Source of the DNA: Corynebacterium falsenii | GTDB lineage: Bacteria; Actinomycetota; Actinomycetes; Mycobacteriales; Mycobacteriaceae | NCBI RefSeq assembly: GCF_020099275.1 | Contig: NZ_CP083646.1 | Location: forward strand, 2,480,001-2,544,000 | Reading direction: 5' to 3' | DNA: 64,000 nucleotides | Shown here: positions 27,751 through 36,014 of the stretch, piece after piece | How positions within the stretch are numbered: the stretch's first letter is position 1 | Layout of the letters: each line of letters opens with the position of its first letter | Notes under the pieces: generated by a model | Told to the model about the DNA's origin: nothing | Seen by the model: the letters and a program-made list of their open reading frames with translations, nothing else | The model's database searches: none | Translations under genes and position numbers: made by a program

Positions 27751-28188
27751 TTAGTTGCCCGCGGGGCCGGTGTCTCTCACGGCGCGCAGATGCCGGCGGG
27801 GCCCTTTGGTGGGCAGGTTTCGGCGGGACGGGTGCCGCCCGGTCGGTGCCGGCACGTCCACCCTGCGCACGATGCGCGATGGCGTTGGTTCCGGTTCCAC
27901 CACCTCTGCCGCTTCTGCCGCCTCCTGCACCGCTTTTGCGAGTGCCATGAGGTCGTCATCGTCGGCATCGGCTGCATCCACCGTGTCGGGGTTGTCGTTG
28001 ACCTCGAGCGTCCATCCCACGGGCACCGTGGTGCGGCGTGCATGCTCGGCGCACAGGTCCCAGCGGTGGGGATCCGCGTGGATGTGCAGTGGCCCCACGG
28101 TCGCGATTTGCTGGGCGTAATCGTACGTCAGCGTGGCGACGGCGGGGTTATGGCACCCGGGCCGGGAACAGGGTCGGTGGAAAGTCAC
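27751..28188 (-). CDS. DUF3499 family protein
   Basis: A 145-residue protein whose N-terminus carries putative metal-binding Cys/His residues (CSRPGCHNPAVATL, then DLCAEHARRT). This pattern is typical of actinobacterial DUF3499 (Rv3258c). The C-terminal half is acidic then basic and poorly conserved. It lies upstream of manB on the minus strand and divergent from the metallopeptidase-family gene, the same arrangement as in M. tuberculosis. Function unknown. Confidence 0.85.
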   Translation of the reverse strand: MTFHRPCSRPGCHNPAVATLTYDYAQQIATVGPLHIHADPHRWDLCAEHARRTTVPVGWTLEVNDNPDTVDAADADDDDLMALAKAVQEAAEAAEVVEPEPTPSRIVRRVDVPAPTGRHPSRRNLPTKGPRRHLRAVRDTGPAGN

Positions 28189-28256
28189 GCGGAATACTTT
28201 ACTCGATGGTGCACCGTCGCGGGCCGGTATGTCGAAGCCGCGCGTGGCCTGGTTCG

Positions 28257-28274
28257 GGGGCTACACTTAGCCCC
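28257..28274 (+). repeat. Perfect hairpin abutting a start codon
   Basis: GGGGCTA (28257-28263), loop CACT, TAGCCCC (28268-28274): a perfect 7-bp stem ending one base before ATG 28276. It would hide the ribosome-binding region, which favours the downstream start ATG 28294 (AAGG at 28285-28288) or implies translational control. Confidence 0.5.
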
Positions 28275-28275
28275 T

Positions 28276-28740
28276 ATGGGATACAAGGCGCGCATGAGGC
28301 AAGATCCGCGTGGTCGCGGCCTGCGCGGGATTTTCCTCCCCGATGTGCCGCGGTATAAGACCCGCTCGCAGAAGTTCGATGACGCCGTGATCGAGGCCTT
28401 TGAACCGATCGCCGAGCGTTACGCGGATGAGCTCGCCGCCGTTGACGTGGCGGTGGATGTGGTGCCGCGAATGCGCCTGAACACAGGCTACCGGCAGTGG
28501 CCCGATGACGTGGTGGCTGCTGGCCAGGTTCCACTGGGTCGATTGGTGCCCGCTGGCGTCGACGCCGATGGTCTCCCAACCCGGCCGAGGATTATCATTT
28601 TTCGCCGACCGATCGAGTCCCGGGTGGATAACAGGTCGGAGTTGTCGGAGATGCTGACGTATATCCTCACGCGGCTCGTCGCGGTCTATCTCAACGTCAC
28701 ACCCGAGACCATAGATCCCACGTTCACGTGGGAGGAATGA
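28276..28740 (+). CDS. Metallopeptidase-family (zincin-fold) protein without HExxH
   Basis: A 154-residue (ATG 28276) or 148-residue (ATG 28294) protein of the Rv3259 family: RSQKFDDAVIEAFEPIAERYADEL, then the PLGRLVPAGVDADGLPTRPRII segment and PIESR. The helix that carries HExxH in related zincins reads ELSEMLTYILTRLVAVYLNV, with no His-Glu pair, so zinc protease activity is doubtful. It is divergent from DUF3499 and convergent with whiB2, ending directly against its stop. Start choice is uncertain because of a hairpin just upstream. Confidence 0.8.
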   Translation: MGYKARMRQDPRGRGLRGIFLPDVPRYKTRSQKFDDAVIEAFEPIAERYADELAAVDVAVDVVPRMRLNTGYRQWPDDVVAAGQVPLGRLVPAGVDADGLPTRPRIIIFRRPIESRVDNRSELSEMLTYILTRLVAVYLNVTPETIDPTFTWEE

Positions 28741-29106
28741 TTAGCCGAGTCGCTTCTTCAGGCGACGGCGCTCACGCTCGGAGAGTCCGCCCCAGATGCC
28801 GAAGCGCTCATCGTGCTCGAGCGCGAACTCGAGGCATTCATCACGCACCTGGCAGGCCTGGCAGATGCGCTTTGCCTCCCGGGTGGAGCCTCCCTTTTCT
28901 GGGAAGAATGCCTCGGGGTCGGTCTGCGCACAGAGGGCCTGCTCCTGCCAATCCTGCTCGACTGCGTCGAAGAGGAGATCGAAGTCTTGGGTCAGATCGA
29001 AGAGGTTCGTGCGACGTGCGTTGTTGTCCACATTTCCTTCCCGCGCCGGGGCAGCGGAACCGCGCGTAGACAGACCCTGGTACGCAGTATCAACTGACTC
29101 GTCCAC
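28741..29106 (-). CDS. whiB2: WhiB2-type Fe-S regulator (WhmD/WhcD-like)
   Basis: A 121-residue WhiB protein. A ~50-residue acidic N-terminal extension precedes the cluster-binding cysteines in ALCAQTD, RICQACQVRDEC, the GIWGGLSE turn and a basic tail RERRRLKKRLG. WhiB2 orthologs control septation and are essential in mycobacteria. GTG 29106 was chosen because AGGAGG stands 5 nt upstream. Position next to the Rv3259 homolog supports the WhiB2 name. A consensus promoter lies about 100 bp upstream. Confidence 0.92.
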   Translation of the reverse strand: MDESVDTAYQGLSTRGSAAPAREGNVDNNARRTNLFDLTQDFDLLFDAVEQDWQEQALCAQTDPEAFFPEKGGSTREAKRICQACQVRDECLEFALEHDERFGIWGGLSERERRRLKKRLG

Positions 29107-29213
29107 TGAGGCCTCCTTCGATTCGTTTCCGCAGAAATTGGATTGTGAGTGATGGTGTGTAGCGACGCGGCGGGTGCGGTGCTTGACCGTTCTCGTTTTT
29201 TCGCTATAGCAAG

Positions 29214-29242
29214 ATTACACACTGGTAATTACACCGCGTCAA
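29214..29242 (-). promoter_or_regulatory. Housekeeping-type promoter of whiB2
   Basis: On the minus strand TTGACG (-35, 29237-29242) is followed after 17 bp by TGTAAT (-10, 29214-29219). This gives a start near 29207 and a ~100-nt leader before whiB2. Spacing and hexamers fit a SigA promoter well. The rest of 29107-29311 holds no gene. Confidence 0.7.
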
Positions 29243-29311
29243 ACTTTGCGCAAATCCTTTGCGTCACACGAGTATCACTCAGTCACATGCGCCACGCGAG
29301 ACTGAACGTAT

Positions 29312-30367
29312 TTACGGAAGCAAAATTTGTTTGACCACGACATATCCACTTTTCCCTGCGTCCGACCACAATATGTGGGCGTTATTGTCAACTCTGGCTT
29401 GAACGACCGCAAGATGTTGTGAATTTCGGAGAATTTTTTTGCCGCCCTCCGAACCGGGGCGTCGAAGTGACACAGAGACCCCCGAGGTGTATCGAGACAC
29501 CTCGAGGGCCAATGAGCAAAGGGGGCGCTGGAGGCGGCGTCGGAGCCAGGCGCTGAACTGATCCACCGCGATGACCAGGATGAGCACCATGATGATGTAG
29601 GTCATCATCTGATCGAATTGAAAGGTCTTGATCGCGCGGTTGATGAGCAGGCCGATGCCACCGGCGCCCACCAGACCCAGGACGAGTGAGCTTCGGACGT
29701 TGACATCGAAGCGGTACAGCAGCAATCCGGTCAATTGCGGCAGCGTCATAGGCAAGGTGGCATGTGCCACCTGCTGCAGCCTATTCGCCCCGGATGTCTT
29801 CAGGGCGATCTGCGGTCCGTTGTCGACTTCTTCCAGCGCCTCTGCCCACAACTTTCCCATGACGCCGGTGTTGTGCAAGATGAGGGCCATCACGCCTGCA
29901 AATGGTCCAAGCCCCACGGCGGTGACAAAGATCAAGGCGAAGACAATGTCTGGAACGGCTCGGAAAAAGGACAAGATGGCTCGGCAGATCTGGTAGACCC
30001 CGCGATGAGGGCTCACGGTTTCGGCGGCGCCGAGAGCGAGGAGAAAGGCGAGGGGAACGGATAGCGTGGTGCCCAGCAAGCCGATCCACAGCGTCGTGAG
30101 AAGTCCGTTGAGACCTGGCTTCACAACCTCGGACCATCGAAGGTCGGGTGGAAAGGCCTCGGAGAAGAAGTGCACCATGTTGGACCAGTCTGCGGCCAGT
30201 TTCTCCACGTAGAACTCGGTGCTGTACACCGCGATGAGGTGAACGATGACGAGAAGCGTGAGGGCAACACCCCAGATAAGGTAGCGCCGGGCGCGATTCT
30301 GCTTGGGGACGGGAACTCGATAGACAAGGGGTTCCGAGGGGATTCGTTGGGCAGTCTTTGGGCTCAT
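29312..30367 (-). CDS. phnE: Phosphonate-type ABC transporter permease (PhnE) with unusual C-terminal extension
   Basis: A 351-residue membrane protein with about six helices. The first is RRYLIWGVALTLLVIVHLIAV, and the permease EAA-type loop is ALEEVDNGPQIALKTSGA. It forms the channel for a phosphonate/phosphite importer with PhnC and PhnD. The family normally ends near residue ~280 (FSAWLRRRLQRPL). Here ~70 polar residues follow, encoded by lower-GC DNA containing a strong hairpin, which looks like non-coding sequence read through. AAGGAG precedes ATG 30367, 12 bp after the phnC stop. Confidence 0.88.
   Translation of the reverse strand: MSPKTAQRIPSEPLVYRVPVPKQNRARRYLIWGVALTLLVIVHLIAVYSTEFYVEKLAADWSNMVHFFSEAFPPDLRWSEVVKPGLNGLLTTLWIGLLGTTLSVPLAFLLALGAAETVSPHRGVYQICRAILSFFRAVPDIVFALIFVTAVGLGPFAGVMALILHNTGVMGKLWAEALEEVDNGPQIALKTSGANRLQQVAHATLPMTLPQLTGLLLYRFDVNVRSSLVLGLVGAGGIGLLINRAIKTFQFDQMMTYIIMVLILVIAVDQFSAWLRRRLQRPLCSLALEVSRYTSGVSVSLRRPGSEGGKKILRNSQHLAVVQARVDNNAHILWSDAGKSGYVVVKQILLP
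29479..29508 (-). terminator. Hairpin at the natural end of phnE
   Basis: Arms 29479-29490 and 29497-29508 (CCCTCGAGGTGT type) pair over 12 bp with one mismatch and a 6-nt loop, inside the annotated phnE extension. There is no T-run after it on the minus strand, so it is a possible but imperfect terminator or mRNA-end structure. Confidence 0.45.
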
Positions 30368-30379
30368 GGGTGAAACTCC

Positions 30380-31153
30380 TTAATCCAGTGCGTAGAGGGT
30401 GTTGATGAGCTCATGCGTACATTGAGCGGCGGGGCGGTCGAAGGCGATCCGTCCTTGTCGCACTCCGATGATGGTGTCGCAGTATTCGAGGGCCAGCTCT
30501 GGCTGGTGCACCACGGAGATGCAGGCCACGCCCGCCGTCTTGCAGATGTCTCGGAGCAATTCCATGACCTGGTGCGCGGCAGTCGGGTCGAGAGCAGAGG
30601 TGGGTTCATCCGCCAGGATCACCTGGGCCTGCTGACACAGGGCTCGGGCCACCGCGACTCGCTGTTGCTGCCCTCCAGATAGCGATCCACACCGCTCGTG
30701 GGCGCGATCTGCCAGGCCAACGCGGCGCAGGCAACCCATTGCCTCTTCGCGCAGAAGCTTGGGGAAAGTCAGCGGTGTGTAGGAACGCCATCGGGGGATG
30801 TGGGCAAGGCCGCCGGCGCAGACATTGTCGAGCGCACTCCGGCGGGGAACCAGATGAATCTTTTGGAAGATCATGGCCGTTCCAGTGAACCCGGGAACAG
30901 CGATCTCTCCCTGATCGGCGGTCTCCAATCCCGCCACGATGCACAGCGCGGTCGATTTTCCGCATCCGTTCGCGCCCAGCAGAGCTACCATCTCACCGCG
31001 GTGCGCGTCGAGGTTGATGTCGTGTAGCACCCGGTGGGAGCCGAAAGCCTTGGCCAGTCCGCTGACGCTGACGAGCTCCTCGGTCGTGAATGGTTCGTTC
31101 TTTGTTGACGACACGTTTCTTGCCTGTGAGTGAGTATCTTGGGTGGTGTTCAT
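30380..31153 (-). CDS. phnC: Phosphonate ABC transporter ATP-binding protein
   Basis: A 257-residue ATPase: Walker A GANGCGKST, signature LSGGQQQRVAVARAL, Walker B VILADEPTSALDP, and the switch His in SVVHQPE. A ~25-residue polar N-terminal lead precedes the domain. It powers uptake through PhnE. ATG 31153 overlaps the phnD stop by one base (TAATG), which fixes the start and indicates coupled translation. An upstream in-frame extension is just the phnD reverse frame. Confidence 0.93.
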   Translation of the reverse strand: MNTTQDTHSQARNVSSTKNEPFTTEELVSVSGLAKAFGSHRVLHDINLDAHRGEMVALLGANGCGKSTALCIVAGLETADQGEIAVPGFTGTAMIFQKIHLVPRRSALDNVCAGGLAHIPRWRSYTPLTFPKLLREEAMGCLRRVGLADRAHERCGSLSGGQQQRVAVARALCQQAQVILADEPTSALDPTAAHQVMELLRDICKTAGVACISVVHQPELALEYCDTIIGVRQGRIAFDRPAAQCTHELINTLYALD

Positions 31154-32073
31154 TACTGCACGTCCTCGGTGGTTAGGCCCAGGCTGTCCCGGAGCTCGAA
31201 CAATTGCTGGTAGTCCTTCTTGGTGACGGGGACCATGGGGCCGGGCGGGTCTACGTCGAGGTAGCTGGCCACAGCCTTGACTGTCTCTGGTTTCAGACTC
31301 AGCAGTGCCTTCCGGATGCGCTTTTTCAGCTCCGGGTTGGCATCGCCGGCCACGGTGATGGGGTCGTTGGGGATGGGAGCAGACTCCCAAATCTGTCGGT
31401 AGTCGTTGGGGTTGAAGCGGCCGTCAGCCTGAGCGGTGGCGAGCGTTTGAGAGTTGATCTCTGCCGCGTCGACGGCGCCATTGGTGAGCGCAAGGAGGGC
31501 TTCGGGGTGGCCTCCCGCGTAGTCCATGGTGAGATCGCTGTCGCTCAAACCGGCATTCTTCACGGCCATGCGAGGTAGGGCGTCGCCAGAGGTAGACCCC
31601 ACCCCACCCAGCGCGAGTTGCTTCCCGCGCAATTCGGTGAGGTTAGTGATCCCGCTGTCTTTTTTGACCCAGATTCCGGCGGTGTAGGTTGAGAGTTTTC
31701 CGTCGGCGTTGCCGAAGGACACCACAGGTTCTGCGTGAGCCTCGGAGCTCGCGAAGACATATCCCAGGGGGCCGAATTGCCCGAGGATGAGCGAGCCGTT
31801 GCGCATGGCGAGCACCTCGGCGGCATAGTCTTCGACGATTTGGACCTCGACTTTGCACTCGAGGCTCTGGCTCAGATCGTCAGCGATGGTTCGATAGGCG
31901 GGTTCCAGTGCGGTGGGGTCTTCGAAGGGTTCCACTCCGAAGGCGATTTTGCCGTAGGGACAGGTGTCACTATCAGCGGATTCTCCGCCGGGCGCACAGG
32001 CTGTGACGCCGAGGGACAGGACGGTGGTCAGGGCTAGTAGGGTACGACGAGCACGGGTGACGTGGTGTTTCAC
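31153..32073 (-). CDS. phnD: Phosphonate/phosphite ABC transporter substrate-binding lipoprotein
   Basis: A 306-residue lipoprotein with signal peptide and lipobox LGVTAC (Cys ~26). The mature part is the PhnD/phosphite-binding type II fold: KIAFGVEPFEDPTALEPAY near the start, GQFGPLGYVFA, GGVGSTSGDALPRM and IPNDPITV in the ligand cleft. It captures a phosphonate-like ligand outside the membrane for PhnCE. It is 45 bp after the FAD oxidoreductase gene and probably on the same transcript. Confidence 0.92.
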   Translation of the reverse strand: MKHHVTRARRTLLALTTVLSLGVTACAPGGESADSDTCPYGKIAFGVEPFEDPTALEPAYRTIADDLSQSLECKVEVQIVEDYAAEVLAMRNGSLILGQFGPLGYVFASSEAHAEPVVSFGNADGKLSTYTAGIWVKKDSGITNLTELRGKQLALGGVGSTSGDALPRMAVKNAGLSDSDLTMDYAGGHPEALLALTNGAVDAAEINSQTLATAQADGRFNPNDYRQIWESAPIPNDPITVAGDANPELKKRIRKALLSLKPETVKAVASYLDVDPPGPMVPVTKKDYQQLFELRDSLGLTTEDVQ

Positions 32074-32118
32074 GACAATGGTTCTCTCGATCTCTCGTAG
32101 TGCGGTGCAACGGGGTAG

Positions 32119-33261
32119 TTAGAAGGTCGGCGCATCGTCGTGATTGATGATCAACGATGCGATTCCGAAGGACAGGGTCATGCCGATGCCGGAGGTCACC
32201 ACGGCTACCGTGGTGCGGTCATCGGGTCGGTGGAGGACAAGGTTGGTGGACGAGCTGTCGGCGTACCTGCCTTGCCAGCGTTGGCGAACGACGGGCCGGT
32301 CGATGCCGAGAAGTCGGCTGGCCCGATCGAGAAGCAGGGATGCCGTGGATTCCTCGATGAAAGGCTCTGGGCTGTCGCTGTACGAATGCGAATCCCCGAT
32401 GAAAAGCCCCCCTCGGGGATCCGGCATACCAGTGACCATGAGGTTGGCCACGCAGTCCACGAGTTCGGGCTCCCGGTCAGCCAACTCCGCGCGGAGCGCA
32501 GTGGCAGAGGGCATGGCTGCGAGGCCGTCATAACGTGCCATGGACGTGCCGGTCAGCATTGCCAGATCAGCGGAAATGTGGTCGGGTCGGTCGATGCTGG
32601 CCATCGTGAGGACGCACGTTCGTACGCCTTGGTCGTTGGCCAGGTCGGGGAAGATCGTGGACAGGTGGTGGCCTGGGCAGACCACCACCTCGGCGGCGCG
32701 AAACTCGCCGCGTGAGGTATGAACACAGCCATCGGACACCGAGAACACGCTGGTGTTCCAGGTGAACGTCACTCCGTGGGAGGCAAGCCATTCCGCCAAC
32801 GCGGGTGCGGCTTCACGGGGATTGACCCGCATGTCTCGGGGAAGATGAGCTCCGCCGATGATGCCGGACGACATGCCGGACACTCCCAACCGAGCACACG
32901 TGTCCTCGGCGTTGAGCAGAAGGACCTCGCGCTCCCCACGGTGCGACGCGAACTCGCGAAGCACCTCGAGTTCGATCTCCGTGGTGGCGGGAAGGATCGT
33001 TCCCGGGGTCGCCGCCCACAGTCCCACCTCAGCAGCGGCGTCCACCCACCCCTGCCGGGATAGGCTGGCCACCGTCTGGATGGCATCGGCCTGTGCCGTG
33101 AAGCACGCGTGGCCGAAGTTTTGGATGGATGCACCGGTCGGCCGCGCCGCCGCGTCAATGACTTGTACGGACATGCCGCGATGCCATGCTCTCCACGCCG
33201 TGGCAAGGCCGATGATTCCGGAACCGACAACGATAAGGTCTGGGGTTGAAGCTGTGCTCAT
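32119..33261 (-). CDS. FAD-dependent oxidoreductase of the phosphonate-associated TIGR03364 type
   Basis: A 380-residue DAO-family flavoenzyme. The Rossmann FAD site is DLIVVGSGIIGLATAW (residues ~9-24), the FAD tail segment ASIQNFGHACF, and a C-terminal FAD-contacting TSGIGMTLSFGIA. Glycine-oxidase relatives oxidatively deaminate amines. The TIGR03364 clade is known to sit beside phosphonatase-like hydrolases, with a proposed role in deaminating an aminophosphonate. ATG 33261 starts the conserved MSTASTPDLIVVG. It is the first gene of the minus-strand phn operon, 38 bp from a perfect palindrome. Confidence 0.85.
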   Translation of the reverse strand: MSTASTPDLIVVGSGIIGLATAWRAWHRGMSVQVIDAAARPTGASIQNFGHACFTAQADAIQTVASLSRQGWVDAAAEVGLWAATPGTILPATTEIELEVLREFASHRGEREVLLLNAEDTCARLGVSGMSSGIIGGAHLPRDMRVNPREAAPALAEWLASHGVTFTWNTSVFSVSDGCVHTSRGEFRAAEVVVCPGHHLSTIFPDLANDQGVRTCVLTMASIDRPDHISADLAMLTGTSMARYDGLAAMPSATALRAELADREPELVDCVANLMVTGMPDPRGGLFIGDSHSYSDSPEPFIEESTASLLLDRASRLLGIDRPVVRQRWQGRYADSSSTNLVLHRPDDRTTVAVVTSGIGMTLSFGIASLIINHDDAPTF

Positions 33262-33298
33262 GTTTCCAATACTGAAGGCTGCACATCCGCTTGTCCAC

Positions 33299-33314
33299 AC
33301 TTGTACGTACAAGT
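33299..33314. promoter_or_regulatory. Perfect 16-bp palindromic operator between the two halves of the phosphonate cluster
   Basis: ACTTGTACGTACAAGT is fully self-complementary. It lies 38 bp upstream of the oxidoreductase start and 92 bp upstream of gntR. Extra half-sites occur nearby: CACTTGT at 33327-33333 repeats 33298-33304, and GACAAG lies at 33366-33371. The shape (TTGT...ACAA) fits a GntR-family dimer site, most likely for the adjacent regulator. Confidence 0.75.
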
Positions 33315-33405
33315 TTCCCTAAACTTCACTTGTTTACCCAGATGTCACCCAAATCCAATCTCTTAGACAAGATAAACAGCGCTCCCACCTGCTAAAGTTC
33401 AGATC

Positions 33406-34176
33406 ATGCGTTCTGCTGGCGATAACCACTTGCACGAACAACTTGCTGATTACCTCCGCGACCTCATCGCGGAGGGGCATCTGCAACCTGGGGATACGCT
33501 CCCCAGCGAAGCTGAGTTGTGCCGCAAATTCAGCAGTTCGCGTAGCCCTGTTCGACAAGCCATCACTACCCTTCGCCGAGAGGGCCTGATCTCCGGCGGT
33601 CAGGGCCGGCGCTCCATTGTGCAATCCCCCGCGGCCACCCAAAGCTTCGGAACCCTCATTTCCTTTACGGAATGGTGCCGCTCGCTTGAGGTCACCCCCG
33701 GCCAGCGGACTCTCCTGCTGTCCCGTACATCAGCGACGGCAGCATCCGAAAGCCCCGATCCATTCGTGGCCTCCGCCTCCGCGGAACTGGGTCTAAGCCC
33801 GGAGGATAACTTCGTCCATCTGCTCCGACTCCGGTTCATGAACGATCGCCCCGCCATGCTGGAACGCGCAGCGTTCCCCCTCCATGTCGGTCGCCTGCTG
33901 TTCGACTTCGACACGGATTCCGGGTCGATCTACGAATATCTCACCTCGCAAGGAGTGGAACTGTACCGCGCCGAAAACCGCATCGACGCCCTCGCTGCAT
34001 CGGAATCGGATGCAACCCAGCTCGATGTCGATACGCACTCCCCCCTCCTCCGTGTTCGTCGCCGGACGACCGACACCCGAGGCCGCGTCCTCGAAGTCGC
34101 CGACGACCGCTACCTCCCCAAACACACCTCTTTCACCATCGTCAACACTCGGGATGCCTCCCCGACGACCCCCTAA
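33406..34176 (+). CDS. GntR/HutC-family transcriptional regulator with UTRA ligand domain
   Basis: A 256-residue regulator. The N-terminal winged helix (residues ~8-72) reads LHEQLADYLRDLIAEGHLQPGDTLPSE and continues with SSRSPVRQAITTLRREGLI. The C-terminal UTRA domain (~95-245) has HLLRLRFMNDRPAMLERA and a final VADDRYLPKHTSF. UTRA domains bind small effectors, and PhnF is the phosphonate example. It is divergent from the transporter operon across the palindrome and 10 bp before the hydrolase gene. It is probably a repressor released by the phosphonate or a breakdown product (inference). Confidence 0.9.
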   Translation: MRSAGDNHLHEQLADYLRDLIAEGHLQPGDTLPSEAELCRKFSSSRSPVRQAITTLRREGLISGGQGRRSIVQSPAATQSFGTLISFTEWCRSLEVTPGQRTLLLSRTSATAASESPDPFVASASAELGLSPEDNFVHLLRLRFMNDRPAMLERAAFPLHVGRLLFDFDTDSGSIYEYLTSQGVELYRAENRIDALAASESDATQLDVDTHSPLLRVRRRTTDTRGRVLEVADDRYLPKHTSFTIVNTRDASPTTP

Positions 34177-34186
34177 GGATTCCCCC

Positions 34187-34891
34187 ATGACTCTCCTCGT
34201 CTGCGATATCGCAGGAACAACCATCAACGAAGACGGCATCGTCTACCGCCAACTCCGCGCGTGTGTCGAAGAACAGGGCGCAACCGTCACCGCCGACCAA
34301 GTCAACGAAGTCAAGGGAACGGAAAAGCGCAACGCCATCATTACCTTGCTCTCCGCCGACGGCTCCACTCCCTCCACAGAAACAGTCGATCGCGCCCATG
34401 CGGCCTTCCTCGAGGGGCTGCAGCGGGAATACGCCGCCACCCCACCGCGCCCGATCGCTGGCGTCGAAGAGGTCCTGCAACGATTCCAACAAGCCGGCGG
34501 CAAGGTCGCCCTCACCACGGGCTTTCAACGGTCCATCGCCGATATCGTCCTGCAGGCCGCAGGGTGGGGAGTGCGCGGATCCTCCAGCGCGCCTGGCCTT
34601 ATCGTCGATGCCCTCGTGACCAGCGATACTGTGCCGGCCGGTCGCCCTGCCCCCTACCTCATCCACAACGCCATGCAGCTCACAGAAACGGATTCCGTGG
34701 CTCACGTGATTTCCGTCGGCGATACAGTGGCAGACCTCCGCGCCGCAGCTAACGCCGGTGTCCGCGGCATCGGTGTGCTCACGGGATCCGTATCCCGCGA
34801 GACCCTCGAGGCCGAGCCCCACGCTCTCGTCCTCGATTCCCTCGCCGACCTCCCCGATCAGCGCTCGCTCAACGTGCCCGAGTTCAGCTAG
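34187..34891 (+). CDS. Phosphonatase-like HAD hydrolase (PhnX-like, TIGR03351 type)
   Basis: A 234-residue HAD enzyme. Motif I is DIAGTT (D7, A9), the DxAGT form special to phosphonatases. Cap-domain lysines occur in VKGTEKRNAI (K43, K47); K47 is the best candidate for the Schiff base to the aldehyde. The residue before motif IV is Arg (AGRPAPY) instead of the usual HAD Lys, again as in this clade, then VISVGDTVADLRAA. Predicted reaction: C-P cleavage of a phosphono-aldehyde to phosphate. AAGGA precedes the ATG. It is co-transcribed with gntR, and its stop overlaps the manC stop. Confidence 0.86.
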   Translation: MTLLVCDIAGTTINEDGIVYRQLRACVEEQGATVTADQVNEVKGTEKRNAIITLLSADGSTPSTETVDRAHAAFLEGLQREYAATPPRPIAGVEEVLQRFQQAGGKVALTTGFQRSIADIVLQAAGWGVRGSSSAPGLIVDALVTSDTVPAGRPAPYLIHNAMQLTETDSVAHVISVGDTVADLRAAANAGVRGIGVLTGSVSRETLEAEPHALVLDSLADLPDQRSLNVPEFS

Positions 34892-35988
34892 ATATCCGAC
34901 GAGAAGCGCAGGCCGCCATCCGGCAGGGTTACCCCGGGCCACACCCGGGCACCACCCTGCAGTTCACACCGAGCGCCCACTACGGCACCTTCACCGATGA
35001 CGGCGTCGGTCAAATGAGCCCGCGCCCCAATGCGCGCACCGGCGCCGATCACGCAGCGCTCCACGGTGGCGCCGGCCTCGATCTCCACGCCGTCGAACAC
35101 CACGGAGGTGTCGACGCGGGCGCCGGCCCCGATCTCGGAGCCCCGGCCGATCACCGTGCCGCCGAGCAGCAGCGCCCCACCGGCGATCGCACTGGAATCA
35201 TCCACTAGCGCCTCGCCATGGCGCCCCTCCAACAGCGGCGACGGAGCAATGCCGCGCACCAAGTCGGACGACCCGCGGACGAAATCCGCCGGGGTGCCCA
35301 TGTCGCGCCAGTAGGACTGATCCACGTGGCCGAACACGCGCGCCCCGCGGTCCAGCAGGCCCGGGAACACCTCGCGCTCCACGCTCACCACACGCCCCGC
35401 TGGGATCTCCGCGATGATCTTCTTGTTGAACACGTACGTGCCCGCGTTGATCTGGTCCGTCGGCGGGTCCTCGGTCTTCTCCAAGAACGCGCTCACGCGC
35501 CCGTCGGCATCCGTGGGCACGCAGCCGAACGCCCGCGGGTCGGCGACGCGCAGCAGATGCAGCGTCACGTCCGCCTCCTGCTCCACGTGCGTCTGCAGCA
35601 CGGACTGCAGATCCGTGCCGCCCAGCACGTCGCCGTTGAACACCATCGCGCGCTCAAACCGCAGGTGATCCAGCACGTTGCGGATGCCACCGCCGGTGCC
35701 CAACGGCTCGTCCTCCACCACGTACTCGATCTCCAGGCCCAGCTCGGAGCCATCGCCGAAGTGCTCCTCGAACACCTCCGCCTTAAACGACGTCCCCAGG
35801 ACCACGTGCGTCATCCCCGCCGCCTTGATGCGGCCCAGCAGGTGCTCCAGGAACGGCCGCCCAGCCACGGGCAGCATCGGCTTCGGGATGGTGTTGGTCA
35901 GCGGCCGCAGGCGCGTGCCCTTGCCACCCACGAGGATCACTGCGTCCGTCTCAGCGGCCAGCGCCGCGCCGTTCTCTGCATTGGTCAC
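34888..35988 (-). CDS. manC: Mannose-1-phosphate guanylyltransferase
   Basis: A 366-residue nucleotidyltransferase. The N-terminal signature is ILVGGKGTRLRPLTNTIPKPM (split across the pyrophosphorylase loop, residues ~17-37), with metal/sugar site VFNGDVLGGTD. The C-terminal half has left-handed beta-helix hexapeptide repeats (IAGGALLLGGTVIGRGSEIG). It makes GDP-mannose for mannosylation. It corresponds to Rv3264c (ManB/RmlA2). The GTG start at 35988 gives MTNAENG. It is followed upstream on the same strand by wbbL and rmlD. Confidence 0.92.
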   Translation of the reverse strand: MTNAENGAALAAETDAVILVGGKGTRLRPLTNTIPKPMLPVAGRPFLEHLLGRIKAAGMTHVVLGTSFKAEVFEEHFGDGSELGLEIEYVVEDEPLGTGGGIRNVLDHLRFERAMVFNGDVLGGTDLQSVLQTHVEQEADVTLHLLRVADPRAFGCVPTDADGRVSAFLEKTEDPPTDQINAGTYVFNKKIIAEIPAGRVVSVEREVFPGLLDRGARVFGHVDQSYWRDMGTPADFVRGSSDLVRGIAPSPLLEGRHGEALVDDSSAIAGGALLLGGTVIGRGSEIGAGARVDTSVVFDGVEIEAGATVERCVIGAGARIGARAHLTDAVIGEGAVVGARCELQGGARVWPGVTLPDGGLRFSSDI

Positions 35989-36014
35989 GGTGTGTTCGCA
36001 CCCTTTCTGTCTTG

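Follow-up and report, generated by a model that had tools for sequence, protein, structure and literature searches.

How might a bacterium break down aminophosphonates without the transaminase PhnW or a canonical phosphonoacetaldehyde hydrolase, PhnX? The question is raised by six genes in a 64,000-nucleotide stretch of the Corynebacterium falsenii genome (contig NZ_CP083646.1, positions 2,480,001 to 2,544,000), referred to here as the window. These genes, hereafter the block, occupy positions 29312-34891, and all six reading frames are present. The four genes on the minus strand encode, in reading order, an oxidase, PhnD, PhnC and PhnE. The two on the plus strand encode a GntR/UTRA regulator and, after a gap of 10 bases, a hydrolase. 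The initial annotation described a self-contained unit of importer, oxidase, regulator and hydrolase, and the encoded families indeed score as it stated. It also placed the unit outside the PhnW and canonical PhnX route. Profile searches of the host genome agree: PhnW-AepZ gave no match at E≤1e-10, and nothing exceeded the canonical PhnX cut-off. PhnJ of carbon-phosphorus lyase was not found in the same genome, and the E. coli control was positive.

We consider it probable that the block encodes a PhnW-independent, hydrolytic aminophosphonate pathway. PhnDCE would import 2-aminoethylphosphonate (AEP) and/or N-methyl-AEP. The flavoenzyme, of the TIGR03364/PbfD type, would convert the substrate to phosphonoacetaldehyde and either ammonia or methylamine, with production of H2O2 from oxygen. 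Lys47 of the hydrolase, equivalent to Lys53 of PhnX, would then form a Schiff base, the phosphoryl group would pass to Asp7, and acetaldehyde and phosphate would be released. The UTRA GntR protein would control both divergent transcripts from a palindrome at 33299-33314. The candidate substrates are AEP, N-methyl-AEP or another aminophosphonate.

The oxidase belongs to the PbfD family

The oxidase scores 387.1 bits against the TIGR03364 profile, above the curated cut-off of 285.1, and its gene shares a cluster with a phosphonatase-type hydrolase and an importer. PbfD1 of A. baumannii carries the same TIGR03364 annotation (PMC10590968; here and below, excerpts of that paper). According to the same excerpts, PbfC and PbfD oxidise N-methyl-AEP to methylamine and phosphonoacetaldehyde, and PbfD1 and PbfD2 also oxidise AEP, using oxygen. 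Turnover of AEP by the tested PbfD-family members was less than or equal to that of N-methyl-AEP, and PbfD2 of Mariniblastus fucicola can substitute for PhnW (PMC10590968). Replacement of the transaminase by a flavoenzyme, as the initial annotation supposed, has thus been shown for PbfD2 and is expected here by homology. Conversely, its preference for an aminophosphonate other than plain AEP is not upheld, since the tested family members accept both N-methyl-AEP and AEP. It further called the roles of TIGR03364 and TIGR03351 "proposed". The word is outdated for the oxidase and still apt for the hydrolase. The oxidase step is already published chemistry, extended to the window by homology, and the hydrolase variant is uncharacterised.

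The hydrolase is TIGR03351-like and departs from PhnX at two positions

TIGR03351 is by far the best family for the hydrolase, which scores 215.4 bits (214.8 in a second scoring), just below the cut-off of 218.9. The hydrolases of 17 of the 24 clusters found in the genus also fall below this cut-off, and the profile scores make TIGR03351-like the best label for the protein. The canonical PhnX profile, TIGR01422, gives 105.7 bits against a cut-off of 220. The best sequence matches of the hydrolase are PhnX structures. Its predicted structure (predicted local distance difference test score 93.8) is also closest to PhnX in Foldseek.

PhnX works by a Schiff-base mechanism (PMC10574752). In the alignment, the PhnX nucleophile Asp12 and residues Lys53, Asp186 and Asp190 are kept as Asp7, Lys47, Asp179 and Asp183. 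Lys53 is present in 145 of 145 rows, comprising the best 120 of 652 homologues and including the window protein three times (typed copy, P0001 and L047). It is also present in 12 of 12 further TIGR03351-type rows, a count that omits L182. Conversely, the hydrolase has Ala50 at the position of PhnX His56 and Phe113 at that of Tyr128, a residue with a role in the PhnX active site. By alignment, then, His56, held to be catalytic in PhnX, is missing. In aligned TIGR03351-type rows His56 is replaced, and Tyr128 mostly replaced, across the family; those of the genus have Ala or Val in place of His56 and retain the Schiff-base lysine. No published assay of a TIGR03351-type hydrolase was found in listings of the open-licence literature. 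The product of the omitted L182 gene (6257-6901) scores with TIGR03351 and has Ala where the nucleophile would be; no phosphonate genes were seen in its surroundings.

Oxidase and hydrolase genes occur together

The initial annotation stated that TIGR03364 and TIGR03351 proteins co-occur, and genome counts bear this out. In a sample of 121 Corynebacterium genomes from a larger group, searched for the oxidase with up to 14 candidates scored per genome, 24 have TIGR03364 over the cut-off. TIGR03351 is found at E≤1e-20 in 26 of the 121, including all 24 with the oxidase, and oxidase and hydrolase share a cluster in 24 of 24. Neither PhnW-AepZ nor canonical PhnX exceeded its cut-off in any of these 24. 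The hypergeometric value for co-occurrence, 2e-23, ignores kinship and serves as a yardstick only. Across 396 genomes of the phylum (up to seven TIGR03351 and four TIGR03364 candidates scored per genome), TIGR03351 reaches E≤1e-50 in 16 and TIGR03364 reaches E≤1e-70 in 16, with both present in 13. In 12 of the 13 the two genes lie within 200 bases; in the window they are one gene apart.

Three oxidase-positive genomes of the phylum have no TIGR03351 match at E≤1e-50. In one (G331, locus L184) the oxidase adjoins canonical PhnX (268.2 bits; cut-off 220), in another (G350, L185) its neighbour is a hydrolase that matches the TIGR03351 type more weakly, and in the last (G392, L183) the reading frame of a hydrolase-like sequence is interrupted. 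In Comamonadaceae loci L083 and L084, TIGR03364 proteins (423.4 and 404.0 bits) are again encoded beside canonical PhnX (320.2 and 319.4 bits), and in Chitinophaga (L086) the pairing is with TIGR03351 (219.8 bits). Because TIGR03364 pairs with either canonical PhnX (L083, L084, L184) or the TIGR03351 type, the two hydrolase types look interchangeable. One oxidase family with either type argues for one shared product, phosphonoacetaldehyde, which is the likely substrate of the TIGR03351-type hydrolase.

Five genomes have the hydrolase without the oxidase. In two of the genus (G068 and G079) an HpnZ dehydrogenase gene over the cut-off adjoins the hydrolase gene. In G186 and G232 an HpnZ-like match (52% and 49%) does so, and G144 has a TIGR03351-scoring protein without the nucleophile and no cluster that we could see. 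Loci L157, L158, L180 and L181 are clusters with a TIGR03351-type hydrolase and HpnZ and without a TIGR03364 oxidase. Such HpnZ-only clusters suggest entry from a hydroxyphosphonate, for example 2-hydroxyethylphosphonate, and would fit if HpnZ makes phosphonoacetaldehyde from that compound. Alternatively, HpnZ might remove acetaldehyde. No paper naming HpnZ was found in the literature listings searched. One further genome has HpnZ over the cut-off (G080:C72:23608-24564) and neither oxidase nor hydrolase over threshold.

We put at slightly under even the chance that the TIGR03351 type constitutes a second phosphonoacetaldehyde hydrolase class, which relies on the Schiff-base lysine, has no His56, and receives its aldehyde either through a PbfD-type oxidase acting on AEP and N-methyl-AEP or through HpnZ acting on 2-hydroxyethylphosphonate.

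The importer probably has an altered amine pocket

PhnE scores 272.7 bits with TIGR01097 (cut-off 216.7). PhnC, for which the query used in scoring and in comparisons with relatives began 15 bases inside the gene, gives 225.2 bits with TIGR02315, below the cut-off of 266.1. PhnD exceeds the cut-off of the broad TIGR01098 model (177.4 bits; cut-off 112.05) and falls below that of the narrow TIGR03431 model (166.5 bits; cut-off 261.1). Aligned with E. coli PhnD, in mature numbering taken as the precursor minus 26, the window protein retains Tyr47, Tyr93, Ser127-Thr128-Ser129, His157 and Asp205. The available excerpts of two papers assign Glu177 and Asp205 to the AEP amino group (PMC5700983, PMC12718374), and the former describes the amine cap as Asp205, Thr14 and Glu177. 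Glu177 is replaced by Gln in the window and in four of four other PhnD proteins aligned from the class B clusters described below, and by Thr or Ala in four of four from class A. The Thr14 position, in an alignment judged by eye, is occupied by Phe. We take the protein to be a probable phosphonate binder whose amine pocket is altered; our guess is that N-methyl-AEP would fit as its ligand.

Two cluster subtypes exist in the genus

The block is shared beyond this species: comparison across the genus finds versions of it, in two subtypes, in the 24 oxidase-positive genomes. Class A (17 of 24) has the regulator facing oxidase-phnD-phnC-phnE1E2-hydrolase-HpnZ; an HpnZ-like gene is present in 17 of 17, and one member (L036) is missing importer and regulator. 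Class B (7 of 24), which includes the window, has a single phnE, and no HpnZ-like match was seen within the class B cluster stretches examined. The class B hydrolase gene is behind the regulator in five loci. In the other two, L040 and L042, it is directly beside the oxidase and the regulator is missing, as is, in L040, the importer. Identity to the PhnD, PhnC and PhnE proteins of the window is 64-77% in class B and 29-42% in class A. In the oxidase tree, class B lies on one side of a branch (support 93/93), and Brevibacterium sequences lie among the class A rows (97/88). Class B-like hydrolases P0024 (58%) and P0023 (60%) have the source names C. bovis and C. lowii. C. falsenii was described from birds (PMC3945510). 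Several oxidase-bearing corynebacteria have bird-related species names: C. pelargi, C. pseudopelargi and C. uropygiale (L078, L081, and oxidase hits P0184 and P0215).

A conserved palindrome is a candidate operator

The regulator matches the GntR and UTRA Pfam models and does not reach the cut-off of any narrow NCBIfam model. The sequence ACTTGTACGTACAAGT, a perfect 16 bp palindrome 37 bases from the oxidase start codon, is a candidate operator. Scans of relatives covered selected stretches around the loci. The palindrome is exact in the window and in L038, L045 and L046, and has one mismatch in L037; these are the five class B loci with a regulator. There was no copy within four mismatches in L040 and L042, the class B loci without one. 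The exact sequence occurs once in the host genome, at 33299-33314.

The window holds three matches within three mismatches, against 0.04 expected. The second copy lies in the regulator gene, and copies with two mismatches are found at the matching place of the regulator genes of L037, L038, L045 and L046; coding constraint may account for it. The third, with three mismatches, falls within the oxidase gene at 33161-33176, 138 bases away from the main palindrome; the other four regulator-bearing class B loci showed no such copy. One more site in the genome has two mismatches. There is no evidence for a wider regulon, because a backward control pattern matches as often.

Alternative readings of the pathway and its origin

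A pathway of the same architecture could act on a different aminophosphonate, such as a 1-hydroxylated one, with the altered hydrolase site suited to a substituted phosphonoaldehyde. The family-wide changes at His56 and Tyr128 would fit such a substrate, as would the PhnD pocket (Gln for Glu177 and, by eye, Phe for Thr14), and the TIGR03364 family note quoted in the excerpts of PMC10590968 suggests a 1-hydroxylated substrate. We nevertheless regard this as unlikely, given that tested PbfD enzymes take N-methyl-AEP and AEP (PMC10590968) and that the same oxidase family is paired with canonical PhnX in L083, L084 and L184. Far less probable still is a role for the hydrolase as an ordinary HAD phosphatase, for phosphate esters or house-cleaning, with the oxidase acting on some other amine and the importer as the sole link to phosphonates. 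Lys53 in every row counted, PhnX structures as the best sequence matches, and the tight coupling of hydrolase to oxidase and phosphonate importers all speak against it.

The origin of the block admits two accounts. In 23 of 24 other Corynebacterium relatives the 1.5-kb flank of manC contains a WhiB gene and matches none of oxidase, hydrolase, regulator and PhnE; in the remaining relative (L049) the contig ends. Because whiB and manC are found together without the block in these 23, the block appears to have reached the site secondarily, as the initial annotation suspected when it called the location unexpected and the block possibly acquired. Arrival after the split from the 24 relatives compared is well supported by this sequence comparison. 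As to its source, there is an appreciable chance, though short of even, that the block is ancestral in corynebacteria, was mostly lost, and moved within its own genome rather than coming from outside the genus. Such a history would fit the single corynebacterial clade of class B oxidases (93/93) and an overall GC content (61.8%) little different from that of the window (64.1%). It would also fit that no flanking repeat or tRNA stood out: a search of the block ends for mobile-element footprints gave nothing but short imperfect repeats, and the window has no tRNA. Against it stand the empty site in 23 of 24 relatives, with the block elsewhere in six of the 24 (oxidase in G003, G007, G010, G011, G013 and G017), and the nesting of Brevibacterium oxidases among class A (97/88). 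The GC content at third codon positions also counts against it, being 0.70-0.75 in five block genes (PhnC not counted) against 0.89, 0.81 and 0.88 in manC, rfbD and pmm, although whiB is at 0.73.

Comparison with known systems

The closest published parallel to the PhnW-independent pathway proposed here is PbfD2-PhnX of Mariniblastus fucicola (Zangelmi et al. 2023, in the excerpts of PMC10590968), with a TIGR03364-type FAD oxidase, no PhnW, a HAD hydrolase of the PhnX kind and phosphonoacetaldehyde as the expected intermediate. The window differs in its host, a Corynebacterium, and in its hydrolase, which is TIGR03351-like, carries Ala at the His56 position and Phe at that of Tyr128, and is far below the PhnX cut-off. 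Canonical PhnWX (TIGR03301 and TIGR01422) likewise combines aminophosphonate import with breakdown through a phosphonoaldehyde and a Schiff-base HAD hydrolase, whereas the block has neither a transaminase nor canonical PhnX over the cut-off. Class A clusters of Corynebacterium and Brevibacterium (e.g. L034, L080) share the oxidase, UTRA GntR regulator, PhnDCE and TIGR03351-type hydrolase. Unlike the window, they have a fused two-part PhnE, an HpnZ (TIGR03366-type) dehydrogenase behind the hydrolase, the more distant importer noted above, and no palindrome copy in the stretches scanned. PcrP, of the PA2803 subfamily, is also a PhnX-related protein with an altered active site; as described in excerpts of PMC12632274, it is inactive and lacks the nucleophile, the lysine and part of the cap, whereas in the window protein the nucleophile, the lysine, the metal ligands and the whole cap are retained.

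We read the block as a complete module for aminophosphonate breakdown, of a known kind, whose hydrolase is an uncharacterised variant. Many Terrabacteria, mostly cyanobacteria, have PbfD homologues unassociated with phnWX or phnWYA clusters (excerpts of PMC10590968), and the window is a case of this. A second hydrolase class, if real, would account for Terrabacterial PbfD homologues outside phnWX clusters, and would be an Actinomycetota phosphonate pathway missed by surveys based on phnX or phnW. Such surveys would overlook phosphonate use by corynebacteria. From the comparisons we predict that phosphonoacetaldehyde cleavage depends on Lys47 and does not require a histidine at position 50. The module is small and complete, with a defined candidate operator, and so every step is directly testable.

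Layout of the block and its neighbours

The features are listed in Table 1. The six genes lie where the initial annotation put them, with coordinates corrected for phnC (30380-31153), the oxidase (32119-33261) and the hydrolase ATG (34187).

Table 1. Features of the block, in window coordinates.
Feature	Position	Strand	Evidence
phnE, ABC permease	29312..30367	-	TIGR01097 272.7 bits over residues 26-279
phnC, ABC ATPase	30380..31153	-	TIGR02315 best narrow match, below cut-off; PF00005; start overlaps phnD stop (TAATG)
phnD, phosphonate-binding lipoprotein-like component	31153..32073	-	TIGR01098 177.4 bits; PF12974; residues aligned to E. coli PhnD
FAD oxidase, TIGR03364 (PbfD) family	32119..33261	-	387.1 bits; DAO domain
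Candidate operator, perfect palindrome ACTTGTACGTACAAGT	33299..33314		Conserved in class B loci with regulator
Weaker second palindrome copy, 3 mismatches	33428..33443		Within first codons of regulator gene
GntR-family regulator with UTRA domain	33406..34176	+	PF00392 and PF07702
PhnX-like HAD hydrolase, TIGR03351 type	34187..34891	+	TIGR03351 215.4 bits; ATG at 34187

No Rfam family was found in 28000-36000. A scan for the sigma-70 consensus gave no match, which says little for corynebacteria. The block lies between a whiB gene and manC, as initially annotated; its flanking genes encode a WhiB-family protein and a mannose-1-phosphate guanylyltransferase (NF052502), and the hydrolase stop codon overlaps the stop of the convergent manC. 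At the other end of the block, phnE has about 72 extra codons at its 3' end (about 29312-29530) that are absent from five of five class B relatives. Similarity upstream of whiB extends to 29257 in the best match (L052), and the phnE extension may enter old whiB upstream DNA. The extension runs through a hairpin of 14 pairs (91 nucleotide fold, -45.9 kcal/mol, z -3.8).

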